Shown here: positions 13,106 through 20,203 of the stretch, piece by piece
Position numbering within the stretch: the first letter of the stretch is position 1
Layout: each line of letters begins with the position of its first letter
Assembly (NCBI GenBank): GCA_017532085.1
Contig: JAFXJT010000013.1
Coordinates: 1-47,355 of the forward strand
DNA: 47,355 nucleotides
Reading direction: 5' to 3'
From: Oscillospiraceae bacterium
GTDB taxonomy: Bacteria > Bacillota > Clostridia > Oscillospirales > Ruminococcaceae
Made by a program: the position numbers and the translations under genes
The notes under the pieces: generated by a model
The model's database searches: none
Told to the model about the DNA's origin: nothing
Seen by the model: the letters and a program-made list of their open reading frames with translations, nothing else

Positions 13106-13134
13106 TTGACAAAAATGAATGTGCATGCTATAAT
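13106..13134 (+). promoter_or_regulatory. Consensus promoter of the T-box leader
   Basis: TTGACA (13106-13111), 17-bp spacer, TATAAT (13129-13134) with TG one base before the -10: a perfect, extended sigma-A promoter. Confidence 0.92.
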
Positions 13135-13140
13135 CAAAAT

Positions 13141-13427
13141 CAAAGCTGTGACGAAGACAAGTTTGCGGAATGCAACGCTTTCAGAGACCCGACGGTTGGT
13201 GTGAGTCGGGAGTGCCATGCCGGAAACATCCCTTCTGAGCTGGAATGCTGAACGTATTATGAGTAAGTGTTCCCGTGAGGCTGCGTTAAAGCAAAGGACT
13301 TACTTGCAACAAATTGTGCAACGAGTTCGCTGAGTGGTGTACATATAGATGTACGCAATTTGAGTGGTACCGCGGGTAAACGTAATGTTCGCTCGTCTCA
13401 AGAGTTTTTCTTGAGACGGGCGTTTTT
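13141..13427 (+). promoter_or_regulatory. T-box riboswitch (tRNA-sensing leader) of the acyl-CoA synthetase gene
   Basis: An untranslated leader of about 290 nt. Stem I: a K-turn base (GTGACGAAG at 13148-13156 facing CTTCTGAGC at 13232-13240), the conserved AGAGA bulge (13183-13187) and the apical loop GGTTGGTGTGA (13194-13204) closed by CCCGAC/GTCGGG. A stem III candidate is AGTAAGT (13262-13268) with ACTTACT. The T-box itself, GTGGTACCGCGG, is at 13364-13375; its TGGT bulge would pair with a tRNA ending ACCA (discriminator A). A terminator hairpin follows at 13390-13427. The specifier loop (GGAAACATCC, 13222-13231) can be read as ATC (isoleucine) or ACA (threonine). Discriminator A fits both, and isoleucine is my preference. 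Uncharged tRNA should allow read-through into the gene at 13463. Confidence 0.93.
13390..13427 (+). terminator. T-box regulatory terminator
   Basis: 13-bp stem (13390-13402 with 13410-13422), then five T. It is the conditional terminator that competes with the antiterminator formed by the T-box sequence. Confidence 0.92.
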
Positions 13428-13462
13428 GTTTTATAAAACCATGTGAGAAAGGATGAACAGTG

Positions 13463-15817
13463 ATGAGTACCATGAAGCCTGTAGATGGCAAGAATACTGA
13501 GCAGAAGATCAAAGAGGTTGCACAGCGAATTCGTAGTCTGCGTGAAGATTTGGGTATTACCATTGATGAAATGGCAGACCGCACAGGTTTTTCCGTTGAT
13601 GAGTATACATTGTTTGAATCCGGAGAACAGGATTTCAGTTTTACATTTATACATAAATGTGCCGGTGTATTTGATGTTGATATCACCGAGTTGATGGAAG
13701 GTCACAGTCCGGAGCTGACCGGATATACTGTGACTCGAAAAGGCGAAGGCATGCCGATTGTTCGCCGCACCGGTTTTGTTTATAATCGTCTTGCCCATAA
13801 GTTCAAAGATAAAATTGCAGAACCGTTTCATGTGGTGATTCCCTATTCTGAGGAAGCACTGTCACGTCCGCTGCATCTGGGCAGTCATGCAGGACAGGAA
13901 ATGGATATTGTTGTAAAAGGTACTTTACGAATGATCATCGGTTCTCATACAGAGACTCTGCATGAAGGTGATTGTATCTATTATGACAGCTCGATTCCTC
14001 ATGATGAGATTGCGCTGGGCGGCGAGGATTGTGAAATCTATGCTTTTGTTATGAATCCCAAGGGCAGCGGCATGAGTGAGTATCATGAAAAAGTACAGGA
14101 GCAGGTTGTGACCAATGTGGATAAAGCTGGTTTGTCGCATCCTGTTGCGGAGCGCTTTATCTCTTGCGAAACCGATGAAAACGGTGTGCTTTCCGGAATC
14201 AACTTCCGCAATGCCGATCGCTTTAATTTCGCATTTGATGTTGTGGATGCTATTGCAGAAAAAACGCCTGATAAACTGGCGATGATCCATGTTTCTGAAG
14301 ATTATACAGAGCGTCGGTTTACCTTTTCGGATATCAAACGCTATTCCTGCCAGACTGCCAATTACTTCAAATCCTTGGGTATTCAGCGTGGTGATCGAGT
14401 TATGCTGGTGCTCAAGCGGCATTATCAGTTCTGGTTCTCGATTCTTGCACTGCATCGTTTGGGTGCAATTGTCATTCCTGCCACAAATCAGCTTATGAAG
14501 CATGATTTTGAATATCGTTTCCAGGCAGCAGGTGTTTCTGCTGTGGTATGTACTGCCGATGGTTCTGTGGCTGATGAAATTGATTTGGCAGCAGCACAGT
14601 GTCCGGAGCTGAAGGTGAAAGTATTGGTCGGCGGAAAACGCGATGGCTGGCAGGATTTCAACGATGATCTTCCGGCATACAGTACACATTTCCGTCGTGC
14701 AGAAGATGCTCCCTGCGGCACAGATCCGATGTTGATGTTCTTCACATCCGGTACAACCGGATATCCCAAAATTGCTCTGCACAGCTTCCAGTATCCTCTG
14801 GGACATTATACAACAGCACGTTATTGGCATAATGTTGATCCCAACGGCATTCATTTTACGATCTCTGATACCGGATGGGGTAAGGCATTGTGGGGTAAAT
14901 TATATGGTCAATGGCTTTGTGAGACAGCGGTATTTGTCTATGACTTTGATCGGTTCCATGCAGATGATATCTTGAAGATGTTTGCCAAATACAGCATCAC
15001 AAGTTTCTGTGCACCGCCAACCATGTATCGTTTCTTTATCAAAGAAGATCTTTCGAAATATGATCTTACAAGCTTAAAGTATGCAACCATTGCCGGTGAA
15101 GCATTGAATCCTGAGGTATTTCATCAGTTTAAGCGTGCAACGGGGCTTTCCCTGATGGAAGGCTTTGGTCAGACCGAGACTACGCTTGCAATTGCAAACT
15201 TTGTCGGAATGACACCAAAGCCCGGTAGTATGGGCAGACCGAATCCGCTGTTTGATGTGCAGATTCTTTCTGCGGAGGGAACTCCTGTGGGTGCCGGTGA
15301 AACCGGTGAAATCTGTATTCGCCTGAAAGAGGATCCGATTTGCGGATTGTCTTTGGGATACTATCGTGATGAAGAGAATACGAAGGCCGCCTGGCATGAT
15401 GGGTATTATCATACCGGTGATACTGCATGGCAGGATGAGGATGGATATTACTGGTATGTTGGCCGTGTAGATGATCTGATCAAGTCTTCCGGCTATCGTA
15501 TCGGACCCTTTGAGATTGAAAGTGTTATTATGGAACTACCTTATGTACTGGAATGTGCTGTGACCGGTGTTCCCGATGAGATCAGAGGTCAGGTTGTGAA
15601 AGCCACCATTGTTTTGACTGAGGGCACTGATCCTTCCGATGCTCTGAAGAAGGAGATCCAGGAATATGTAAAGAATGCAACCGCACCTTATAAATATCCT
15701 CGTGTGGTTGAGTTCCGTGACAGCTTGCCTAAGACAGTGGGAAGCGGTAAAATCCGTCGTTCTGAGCTGCGTAAAGAAGATGCGCAAAAAGCTGCAAAAG
15801 ATGAATCCAATTCATAA
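13463..15817 (+). CDS. XRE-cupin-acyl-CoA synthetase fusion (AMP-forming)
   Basis: 784 aa in three parts. About 15-80 is an XRE-type helix-turn-helix, about 130-200 a cupin barrel (HAGQEMDIVVKG, then EGDCIYYDSSIPH), and about 250-784 a full adenylate-forming enzyme. The last has the P-loop TSGTTGYPK (428-436), a GFGQTET motif, YHTGD, a GRVDDLIKSSGYRI hinge, and the C-terminal PKTVGSGKIRR with the adenylation Lys. HTH-cupin modules usually sense small molecules; here one is fused to a ligase that makes acyl-CoA from an acid, ATP and CoA. The ATG at 13463 lies 10 nt after AAAGG; a GTG at 13460 is also possible. It is a single gene between a T-box leader and a terminator hairpin. Substrate unknown; context suggests an amino-acid-related branched or aromatic acid. 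Confidence 0.9.
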   Translation: MSTMKPVDGKNTEQKIKEVAQRIRSLREDLGITIDEMADRTGFSVDEYTLFESGEQDFSFTFIHKCAGVFDVDITELMEGHSPELTGYTVTRKGEGMPIVRRTGFVYNRLAHKFKDKIAEPFHVVIPYSEEALSRPLHLGSHAGQEMDIVVKGTLRMIIGSHTETLHEGDCIYYDSSIPHDEIALGGEDCEIYAFVMNPKGSGMSEYHEKVQEQVVTNVDKAGLSHPVAERFISCETDENGVLSGINFRNADRFNFAFDVVDAIAEKTPDKLAMIHVSEDYTERRFTFSDIKRYSCQTANYFKSLGIQRGDRVMLVLKRHYQFWFSILALHRLGAIVIPATNQLMKHDFEYRFQAAGVSAVVCTADGSVADEIDLAAAQCPELKVKVLVGGKRDGWQDFNDDLPAYSTHFRRAEDAPCGTDPMLMFFTSGTTGYPKIALHSFQYPLGHYTTARYWHNVDPNGIHFTISDTGWGKALWGKLYGQWLCETAVFVYDFDRFHADDILKMFAKYSITSFCAPPTMYRFFIKEDLSKYDLTSLKYATIAGEALNPEVFHQFKRATGLSLMEGFGQTETTLAIANFVGMTPKPGSMGRPNPLFDVQILSAEGTPVGAGETGEICIRLKEDPICGLSLGYYRDEENTKAAWHDGYYHTGDTAWQDEDGYYWYVGRVDDLIKSSGYRIGPFEIESVIMELPYVLECAVTGVPDEIRGQVVKATIVLTEGTDPSDALKKEIQEYVKNATAPYKYPRVVEFRDSLPKTVGSGKIRRSELRKEDAQKAAKDESNS

Positions 15818-15823
15818 AGCAGA

Positions 15824-15859
15824 AAAGAGCTGTGTCAACAGAGATTGACACAGCTCTTT
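15824..15859. terminator. Hairpin terminator between convergent genes
   Basis: 15-bp perfect stem (15824-15838 with 15845-15859), loop CAGAGA. It has short T-runs at both ends and lies between the ligase stop (15817) and the flotillin stop (15891), so it probably serves both. Confidence 0.75.
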
Positions 15860-18460: not shown

Positions 18461-20203
18461 TTGCAACCGATTTCATTTACTGAATTAAAACGATACGCCA
18501 AGCAATCGACTTGCGGTTACCCTCAAATGAAGCTTGCGATTCTGGGAGATTCTGCAACACAGCAGCTTGCAGTTGCATGTAAAGGAGAGGGCATTCGCCG
18601 CAATTACGATCTTCAAGTGTTTGATGCGGATTACGATCAGATGGATGCTCTGACCATAGATCCGAATTCTGCGCTTTATGCCTTTGCACCGGATAATATC
18701 CTATTGTATTTTTGTACACAGAAATGCTTGCTGCGATATCAGGCACTGTCTGTTGCGGAACAAAAAAACTTTGCGGATCTGGAATGCCAAAGAATCTGTC
18801 TTTTGCTGAATCGTCTTGCAGCTCATACGAATGCAAAGGTTTTGCTTTGTGATTTTCCTGTAATAGATGACGGTGTGTTTGGTAATTATGCATTGCGTAC
18901 AGAAACATCTTTTCTTTATCAGTTACGGCAGCTCAATGCCAAACTGGATGCTTGCATAGCCAATCAATATCCGAATGTGCATCCGATTGCACTCAGTGCC
19001 ATACAAGTACAGCTTGGCAGTGCAGCATTTTCCGATGCCAGAATGTGGCATTTAGCAAAATTTGCAATGCGTAATGAGGCATTGCCCTATGCAGCTGCAG
19101 CAATTTTGGATGTGATCTCGGCTGTACAGGGGCGCATCAAAAAGTGTATTGTGCTGGATCTGGATCATACCCTTTGGGGCGGTGTGATCGGAGATGACGG
19201 CATGGATGGGATTGAGCTGGGTGAGCTTGGTGCAGGGCCTGCATTTGTGGCACTGCAACGATGGTTAAAGGCATTGCGGCAGCGAGGCATCCTGTTGGCA
19301 GTCTGCAGCAAGAATCATGAGGAAATTGCGAAAGAACCGTTTCTGCATCATCCCGATATGGTACTAAGGCTTGATGATATTGCCATGTTTGTTGCAAATT
19401 GGGAGGACAAAGCGACCAATATTATGAGGATTCAGAACACACTCAATATTGGTATGGACAGTATTGTGTTCTTGGATGACAATCCGTTTGAACGTGCCTT
19501 GGTTGCCGGTATGCTGCCGGAAATTACGGTGCCGGATCTTCCTGAGGATCCTGCGCTGGTGTTGGATTATTTGCAGTCGCTGCATTTGTTTGAGGCAACC
19601 GGCTTTTCTGAAGAAGATACAAACCGTACTGCGCAATATCAGGCGGAACTGCATCGCCATGCTGCACAAACCGAATATGCTGATTATCAAGATTATCTGG
19701 TCTCTTTGAAAATGGAAGCTGTGACTGCTCCGTTTGAATCATTTTACTTTGGGCGTATTGCACAGTTGACACAGCGTTCCAATCAGTTTAATCTGCGGAC
19801 ACAGCGGTATACAGAAGCGGAGATTCGTGCAATGGCGGAAAGTGATGCCTATCTGACACAGTATATGACACTGAGCGATCGGTTTGGCGATCATGGACTG
19901 ATCAGTGTTGTGATTCTGAAAAAACAGGAAAACGCCTTGTTTATTGATACATGGTTAATGAGCTGTCGTGTTTTGCGCAGGGGAGCAGAGCAATATCTTT
20001 TCAATCAGATCGTTGCATTGGCACGCCGATCCGGCTATGATCTTCTGATTGGTGAATATCTTCCCACATCCAAAAACACAATGGTTGCGTCCTTTTACGA
20101 AGAATGCGGTATGACTCCTGCGGAGAACGGAAGATTTATTTTGCATTGTACAGAATATCAGCCGCATTCTACTGCAATTTCTGCTAAAGATAGTGGCAAG
20201 TGA
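18461..20203 (+). CDS. FkbH-like HAD-IIIC protein with SGNH-like N-terminus
   Basis: 580 aa from a TTG start (GAAAGGA about 10 nt upstream). Residues about 22-215 resemble the SGNH-like region of FkbH relatives (LAILGDSATQQLA). About 228-370 is a HAD-IIIC domain with DLDHTLWGG (nucleophile D233, acid D235) and FLDDNPFER. About 430-575 is a GNAT-like domain (FGDHGLISVVIL, then FYEECGM). FkbH proteins load a glyceryl unit from 1,3-bisphosphoglycerate onto a carrier protein, and standalone forms occur in polysaccharide or lipid clusters. No carrier protein gene is in the window, so the pathway is unknown. It lies 55 bp after the amidase gene and may be co-transcribed. Confidence 0.85.
   Translation: MQPISFTELKRYAKQSTCGYPQMKLAILGDSATQQLAVACKGEGIRRNYDLQVFDADYDQMDALTIDPNSALYAFAPDNILLYFCTQKCLLRYQALSVAEQKNFADLECQRICLLLNRLAAHTNAKVLLCDFPVIDDGVFGNYALRTETSFLYQLRQLNAKLDACIANQYPNVHPIALSAIQVQLGSAAFSDARMWHLAKFAMRNEALPYAAAAILDVISAVQGRIKKCIVLDLDHTLWGGVIGDDGMDGIELGELGAGPAFVALQRWLKALRQRGILLAVCSKNHEEIAKEPFLHHPDMVLRLDDIAMFVANWEDKATNIMRIQNTLNIGMDSIVFLDDNPFERALVAGMLPEITVPDLPEDPALVLDYLQSLHLFEATGFSEEDTNRTAQYQAELHRHAAQTEYADYQDYLVSLKMEAVTAPFESFYFGRIAQLTQRSNQFNLRTQRYTEAEIRAMAESDAYLTQYMTLSDRFGDHGLISVVILKKQENALFIDTWLMSCRVLRRGAEQYLFNQIVALARRSGYDLLIGEYLPTSKNTMVASFYEECGMTPAENGRFILHCTEYQPHSTAISAKDSGK

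Follow-up and report, generated by a model that had tools for sequence, protein, structure and literature searches.

T-box leaders (RF00230) of ileS, ilv and other amino-acid genes read a tRNA anticodon by a specifier codon and act by transcription antitermination. Why such a leader should precede a gene for an acyl-CoA ligase is the question raised by contig JAFXJT010000013.1 of an Oscillospiraceae bacterium (assembly GCA_017532085.1). The whole stretch analysed, 47,355 nucleotides long, is referred to here as the window; it is contig C72 of a genome of 1.98 Mb in 82 contigs (83% complete). The parts of its leader are those known from the ileS and ilv T-boxes, but the controlled gene encodes a fusion of helix-turn-helix (HTH), cupin and acyl-CoA ligase domains. 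From sequence comparison we consider it very probable that a transcription-attenuating tRNA-Ile T-box controls an AMP-forming 2-methylbutyrate--CoA ligase, which would feed reductive carboxylation to isoleucine. The features involved are the following:

13106..13134, plus strand: sigma-70-type promoter TTGACA-17-TATAAT with TG ahead of the -10 hexamer (hexamers match 12/12)
13139..13403, plus strand: T-box leader, stem I to antiterminator (RF00230, 118.8 bits, E 8.1e-26)
13228..13230, plus strand: specifier codon ATC (Ile) in the stem I specifier loop (fold and conservation in related leaders)
13364..13375, plus strand: T-box sequence GTGGTACCGCGG, with the TGGT bulge at 13365-13368 (tRNA discriminator A expected)
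13390..13422, plus strand: intrinsic terminator, excluding the antiterminator and vice versa (fold and T tract)
13460..15817, plus strand: HTH-cupin-acyl-CoA ligase gene, predicted 2-methylbutyrate--CoA ligase (785 aa from GTG; ATG at 13463)
13517..13693, plus strand: HTH domain (HTH_31, residues 20-77, E 4e-7; HTH_3, residues 24-78, E 5e-7)
13874..14044, plus strand: Cupin_2 domain (residues 139-195, E 1e-9)
14249..15736, plus strand: AMP-binding (residues 264-634, E 9e-60) and AMP-binding_C (residues 685-759, E 2e-20)
14879..14881, plus strand: codon of Gly474 (numbered from GTG 13460) in TGWGK, the residue tracking the specifier

The original prediction of a complete T-box leader immediately 5' of the ligase gene was confirmed by the RF00230 match, the promoter and the terminator/antiterminator pair. 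In the Infernal check (cmscan) the match at 13139-13403 covers all 219 model positions (1-219) and scores 118.8 bits, above the gathering score of 93; the leader ends 57 bases from the start of the ligase open reading frame. In itself, the T-box of the window is an ordinary member of the RF00230 family. A promoter search at a looser cut-off of 9/12 gave 1 site in the sequence compared to 0.7 expected from shuffles. The terminator has a folding energy of -23.9 kcal/mol (z -7.0 versus shuffles), and the antiterminator pairing is the minimum free energy structure of 13358-13412, a stretch from which the 3' half of the terminator is excluded. The antiterminator fold was no stronger than that of shuffled sequence (z -0.64), and stem I in isolation had the stability of shuffles (z 0.02), so that the case for stem I is made by the covariance model and by conservation.

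This conservation was followed in relatives of the ligase. A protein relative is present in 131 of the 197 genomes of the family to which the window genome belongs, and the nearest named relatives among the matches listed, which may omit records very close to the window, are Ruminococcus. Loci were sampled from those family genomes (30), from 40 further stretches and from named genomes (at least 80); ligase matches below 500 bits and the loci L001, L075, L076, L078 and L079 were left out. The resulting 175 ligase rows stem from 152 loci, overlapping loci duplicating some genes, and removal of identical and short rows left 164 distinct ones, among them 98 of Ile and 21 of Val type. A later set comprised 44 ligase copies in genomes of other families, on 40 stretches chosen for family spread and second copies (cut-off 400 bits). 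Codons were read at fixed columns of a purpose-built leader profile trained on 76 ligase leaders.

Which amino acid does the leader sense? The specifier had been given as either ATC (Ile) or ACA (Thr); the former was upheld and the latter was not. The predicted fold presents ATCC single-stranded above a GAAG/CTTC stem. All 127 readable T-boxes before related ligases carry an Ile codon (ATC, 103) or a Val codon (GTA, 21; GTC, 3) and no other; the remaining rows had no detected T-box (38), a short upstream sequence (8) or a leader truncated 5' of the codon (2). In every ligase leader reaching the codon it lies in identical columns, at constant spacing and in a gap-free alignment. Column-based reading misleads in the tyrS leader of locus L065, where the columns give ATC and the spacing gives TAC, because that alignment contains gaps, whereas those of the ligase leaders do not. 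The three bases 5' of ATC differ among the 98 distinct Ile-type leaders, in all of which ATC itself is found by selection, so that 98/98 is not an independent count.

The loop of the window, GAAACATCC, also contains ACA (Thr), CAT (His) and AAC (Asn), and TC plus the following base is a Ser codon (TCN) in all 98 distinct Ile-type leaders. The strict GAA-A-NNN spacing known from other T-boxes, applied to this loop, gives CAT. Spacing does differ between T-boxes, the valS leader of the window genome yielding GTC only with one extra base. If one of these overlapping codons were the specifier, the substrate of the ligase would be unrelated to isoleucine, a case to which we give hardly any credence. 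ACA, CAT and AAC are not conserved, given the variable bases before ATC, and the same columns hold ATC or GTA/GTC in every readable ligase leader. Most Val-type leaders have TAG or TAA in the Ser frame; furthermore, both tRNA-Ser genes in the window carry discriminator G, which does not match the TGGT bulge. Thr, His, Asn and Ser specifiers were rejected on these grounds.

The bulge reads TGGT in every related leader with a readable motif (5 ATC rows were unreadable). The window genome has four T-box matches, before the ligase, valS, a TrpB-like gene and, below the gathering score, a frame truncated by the contig end that was judged trpB by eye. Two of these served as controls: the valS leader has TGGT and its own tRNA-Val discriminator A, and the TrpB-like leader has TGGC and its own tRNA-Trp discriminator G. 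Their codons (GTC and TGG, respectively) were read by eye with the gene identity known beforehand. The isoleucine reading of the window T-box is near certain.

The gene had been described as a plain ligase gene, which the domain search corrected to an HTH-cupin-ligase fusion. AMP-binding and AMP-binding_C are both present and place the ligase part among the AMP-forming acyl-CoA synthetases of the ANL superfamily. Its best solved relative is PDB 3etc (E 4e-199; 665.7 bits over 522 residues), the archaeal MacsMa of Methanosarcina acetivorans, whose preferred substrate is 2-methylbutyrate (PMC10455477). MacsMa shares with the window ligase the Gly at the position equivalent to residue 474, but its solved chain of 580 residues lacks the HTH-cupin fusion. 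The best NCBIfam match, yet below the family cut-off, is MbcS (NF047394) of Staphylococcus aureus, an enzyme selective for 2-methylbutyrate and isobutyrate and poor with isovalerate (PMC10026030). The prediction of 2-methylbutyrate as the substrate of the window ligase is a strong one. A perfect hairpin with 15-base arms (window 15824-15859) lies directly past the ligase stop codon; if it is a terminator, as it perhaps is, the ligase would be monocistronic at the window.

The Val-type leaders belong to paralogues of this ligase. In a tree of the 164 ligase domains, made by a quick method and with no bootstrap, the Val label requires 5 changes compared to 20.1 with shuffled labels. Of the distinct Val rows, 19 of 21 form, together with 2 unlabelled rows, a single clade (Shimodaira-Hasegawa-like approximate likelihood ratio support 96) nested within the Ile copies; the other two are placed apart from it. 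A position-by-position comparison of the 98 Ile with 19 Val rows showed that residue 474 separates them fully: the motif TGW[G/A]K has Gly in 103/103 ATC rows and Ala in 24/24 Val rows, both separate Val lineages included. The same was seen in the later loci outside the family, with Gly in 18/18 ATC copies (two of them identical to earlier rows) and Ala in 16/16 GTA copies (none more than 80% identical to any earlier row). Both residues occur in copies without a detected T-box, too (19 Gly and 19 Ala in the first set; 5 Gly, 4 Ala and 1 Met among 10 later ones). Where two copies are adjacent and both codons readable, the Ile copy stands ahead of the Val copy, and in L040 and L146, adjacent pairs without a detected T-box, the first copy has Gly and the second Ala. 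If residue 474 lines the acyl pocket, Ala would fit a pocket narrowed for the smaller isobutyrate and Gly one for 2-methylbutyrate. The Val-specifier paralogue with Gly474Ala is predicted to play the same role on the way from isobutyrate to valine. MbcS differs in this respect, acting in lipid synthesis as one enzyme for both acids, while paralogues stand under two codons here.

Two groups of ligases with other leaders were observed besides. The second ligase of this family in the window genome (locus L080, contig C29, 14460-11980, minus strand) is of the Ala type, has no T-box and is accompanied by a separate HTH-cupin gene. Upstream of it lies a short open frame rich in Leu and Val, along with a terminator-like hairpin, as is similarly the case at L056, L071 and L072; judged from its sequence, this kind of leader resembles ribosome-mediated attenuation. 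A clade of Gly-type fused ligases without a detected T-box, mostly from Ruminococcus (L122, L126, L127, L129, L131, L133, L135, L136, L141, L114 and L020), has a short leader, in most cases with a GTAAGCAC-like start and AGGCTTGC ahead of the ATG, which may perhaps be an operator for the clade's own HTH domain.

Where would the acyl-CoA go? With the VorB of the window genome as query, a VorB-like gene was found downstream of the ligase in 20 of 129 loci, with VorA-like genes in 19 and VorC-like genes in 17 of them. These 20 are every locus with two adjacent copies and sequence past them, compared to 0 of the 109 other loci. Both codons were read in 18; L040 has no T-box, and in L153 the start of the first leader is missing. 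VorA is missing only at L153, where the contig ends first, and in the other adjacent pair, L146, the sequence ends within the second copy. IlvE, the branched-chain aminotransferase, is present in 14 of the 20 loci, some of the rest being cut off, and precedes VorB in L039. In L138 an Ile T-box with its ligase is followed by a Val T-box with a second ligase; next come a CbiA-like P-loop gene (weak match), VorB (534 bits, cut-off 399), genes resembling the beta and gamma subunits but scoring under their cut-offs, IlvE (487 bits, cut-off 307) and then a Leu T-box with a LeuA-like gene. The later loci L251, L252 and L253 have the same VorB arrangement and L276 has it partly. This gene order supports a route from the acid by acyl-CoA and 2-oxo acid to the amino acid at the adjacent pairs. 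Contig C26 of the window genome itself carries VorB (552 bits) together with beta- and gamma-like genes.

At the window the following course is predicted. When isoleucine is scarce, uncharged tRNA-Ile would pair with the ATC codon of stem I and, by its NCCA end, with the TGGT bulge of the antiterminator; terminator 13390-13422 would not form and the ligase would be made. The ligase would convert environmental 2-methylbutyrate to 2-methylbutyryl-CoA, a VorB-type 2-oxoacid:ferredoxin oxidoreductase (VOR) could carboxylate this reductively to 3-methyl-2-oxopentanoate, and the aminotransferase would yield isoleucine. An isoleucine-starvation switch for 2-methylbutyrate activation, as originally predicted, is well supported, short of proof, by the conserved Ile codon, the residue change in the Val paralogues, the VorB/IlvE cluster and the substrate preference of 3etc. 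The pathway link, originally offered as inference, thus has support from the genomes. The contrast drawn to the usual amino-acid targets of T-boxes softens, because the ligase would itself be an amino-acid synthesis gene.

Two other roles of the ligase were considered. VOR-type enzymes also run oxidatively in amino-acid fermenters, and the ligase might be catabolic, activating branched acids for oxidation or, in reverse, gaining ATP from isoleucine fermentation. We regard this as very unlikely: the T-box would switch the gene on under isoleucine shortage, opposite to what breakdown needs, and the removal of pyrophosphate drives AMP-forming ligases in the direction of the CoA ester. A use of the product chiefly as primer for anteiso branched-chain membrane lipids appears unlikely, too, if somewhat less so. 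An Ile T-box would respond in this case because isoleucine is the usual primer source; MbcS, the best named family, channels 2-methylbutyrate and isobutyrate into lipids (PMC10026030), and single copies, including that of the window, have no VOR linkage. The adjacent copies, on the other hand, lead a VorB and often IlvE cluster directed to amino acids, T-boxes respond to tRNA charging rather than to the lipid state, and IlvC of the usual pathway is rare in genomes with Val copies. Both uses could coexist.

Of the 22 genomes carrying a Val copy, 2 gave an IlvC match, compared to 21 of the 66 in which only Ile copies were seen and 38 of the 66 lacking a ligase relative at E 1e-60. In the genomes inspected individually it is present in the window genome, G188, G096 and G132 and was not found in G108, G117, G193, G169, G168, G186, G105 and G154. 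In genome G108, which is of the same genus and 99% complete, the T-box ligase is present, IlvC and IlvD were not found, and neither IlvA nor citramalate synthase exceeds the cut-off. Several genomes retain both routes; in G188, ilvA lies about 8 kb ahead of ilvC on one contig. A clear-cut relation between IlvC absence and Val copies was discarded as too weak, and these counts are used as supportive only.

Several results weigh against salvage of 2-methylbutyrate to isoleucine as the function of this locus. Concerning the usual pathway, IlvC is also absent from 28 of the 66 genomes without a ligase relative, the difference between Val-copy and Ile-only genomes is weak (p 0.049), and the genomes counted are related, some incomplete and at least one probably double (G106 and G220 have the same IlvC place). 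IlvA scores over the cut-off in G188, G096, G132 and G168, and citramalate synthase in G169. The window genome has IlvC, its match beginning 500 bases from the contig start, and IlvD; at 83% completeness, its isoleucine may therefore come by the usual route, too. Concerning the neighbourhood, its ligase and VOR lie on separate contigs, and VorB was found in none of the single-copy loci, the window included, some of which have short flanks. Within the fetched stretches VorB was not found for 12 of 16 later Val copies, nor in the Val-row loci L044, L050 and L151, and VorA- and VorC-like genes score under their curated cut-offs. As to the ligase, the match to MbcS reaches 433.5 bits, below the cut-off of 850, and the placing of residue 474 in the acyl pocket is deduced from the motif. 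Among the leaders, the 38 rows without a detected T-box, the Ruminococcus clade included, do have upstream sequence, and most leaders rest on the purpose-built profile and the conserved T-box sequence instead of RF00230; at Rfam's own threshold, cmscan gives only 8 ligase leaders in the loci of 29 relatives. No tRNA-Ile gene was found in the window or in 19 scanned stretches, so that its discriminator could not be read.

Branched volatile fatty acids were reportedly recognised as growth factors for ruminococci by Allison and others in 1962. In rumen fermentation 2-methylbutyrate is a precursor of isoleucine and isobutyrate one of valine (PMC7356843), and reductive carboxylation of 2-methylbutyrate has been proposed for Methanobrevibacter ruminantium (PMC2812497). 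The precursors are those considered here; in their treatment of this route the two papers name neither a bacterial ligase gene nor T-box control. The term acyl-CoA is absent from the main texts, supplements apart, of Wels 2008 (PMC2494555) and Sun 2013 (PMC3766115). In a limited literature search no paper was found to describe a T-box before a ligase of this kind, which may be listed automatically in T-box databases, and there was no co-occurrence of T-box riboswitch with isobutyrate, or of T-box with specifier codon and AMP-binding. As far as searched, the controlled gene, the matched Val paralogue and the link between codon and residue are new. They put likely genes and a switch to a nutritional effect of branched acids in the rumen known for sixty years, and would extend T-box control to acid:CoA ligases. 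In the duplicated pair, a regulatory RNA and a residue of the catalytic domain diverge in step. With codon and residue 474 changing together, the RNA would indicate the specificity of its enzyme; if this is true, one codon and one residue would mark the acid of each enzyme, and genomes from rumen and gut would allow acid-dependent amino-acid synthesis to be predicted.

A wider reading, which we consider probable, is a Clostridia-wide, T-box-wired salvage network by which fermentation acids are made into branched, and perhaps also aromatic, amino acids, with one ligase per amino acid. After duplication, the change of the codon from ATC to GTA would have gone along with that of residue 474 from Gly to Ala. 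Beside the Ile and Val ligases, its members would be a LeuA-like gene with a TIM-barrel/AMP-binding ligase under a Leu T-box and a phenylacetate--CoA ligase under a probable Phe T-box.

Leu T-boxes (CTC; CTG in L035) stand before a LeuA-like gene at L105 (5459-9608), L095, L107, L139, L162 and L035. The next frame has about 830 aa (truncated in L139) and in L105 is a xylose-isomerase-like TIM barrel fused to an AMP-binding ligase. A T-box preceding leuA is described in a Geobacter study (PMC2700814). T-boxes with GAATTC at the specifier (by eye TTC, Phe) were observed before genes for a phenylacetate--CoA ligase-like protein and an ACT-domain protein at L095 (15616-17678), L105 (3229-5354), L116 (5930-3878) and L128 (12659-14731), a likely aromatic counterpart of the Ile/Val system. 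In the window genome, a gene for the alpha subunit of indolepyruvate oxidoreductase lies near a phenylacetate--CoA ligase-like gene on contig C3. At L100 (14097-15848, minus strand) an Ile T-box (ATC) precedes a frame with ACT and metallo-beta-lactamase-like domains. Further downstream in the window, 18461-20203 encodes an FkbH-domain protein (TIGR01686, 294 bits), which is followed by several long plus-strand frames up to about 28990.

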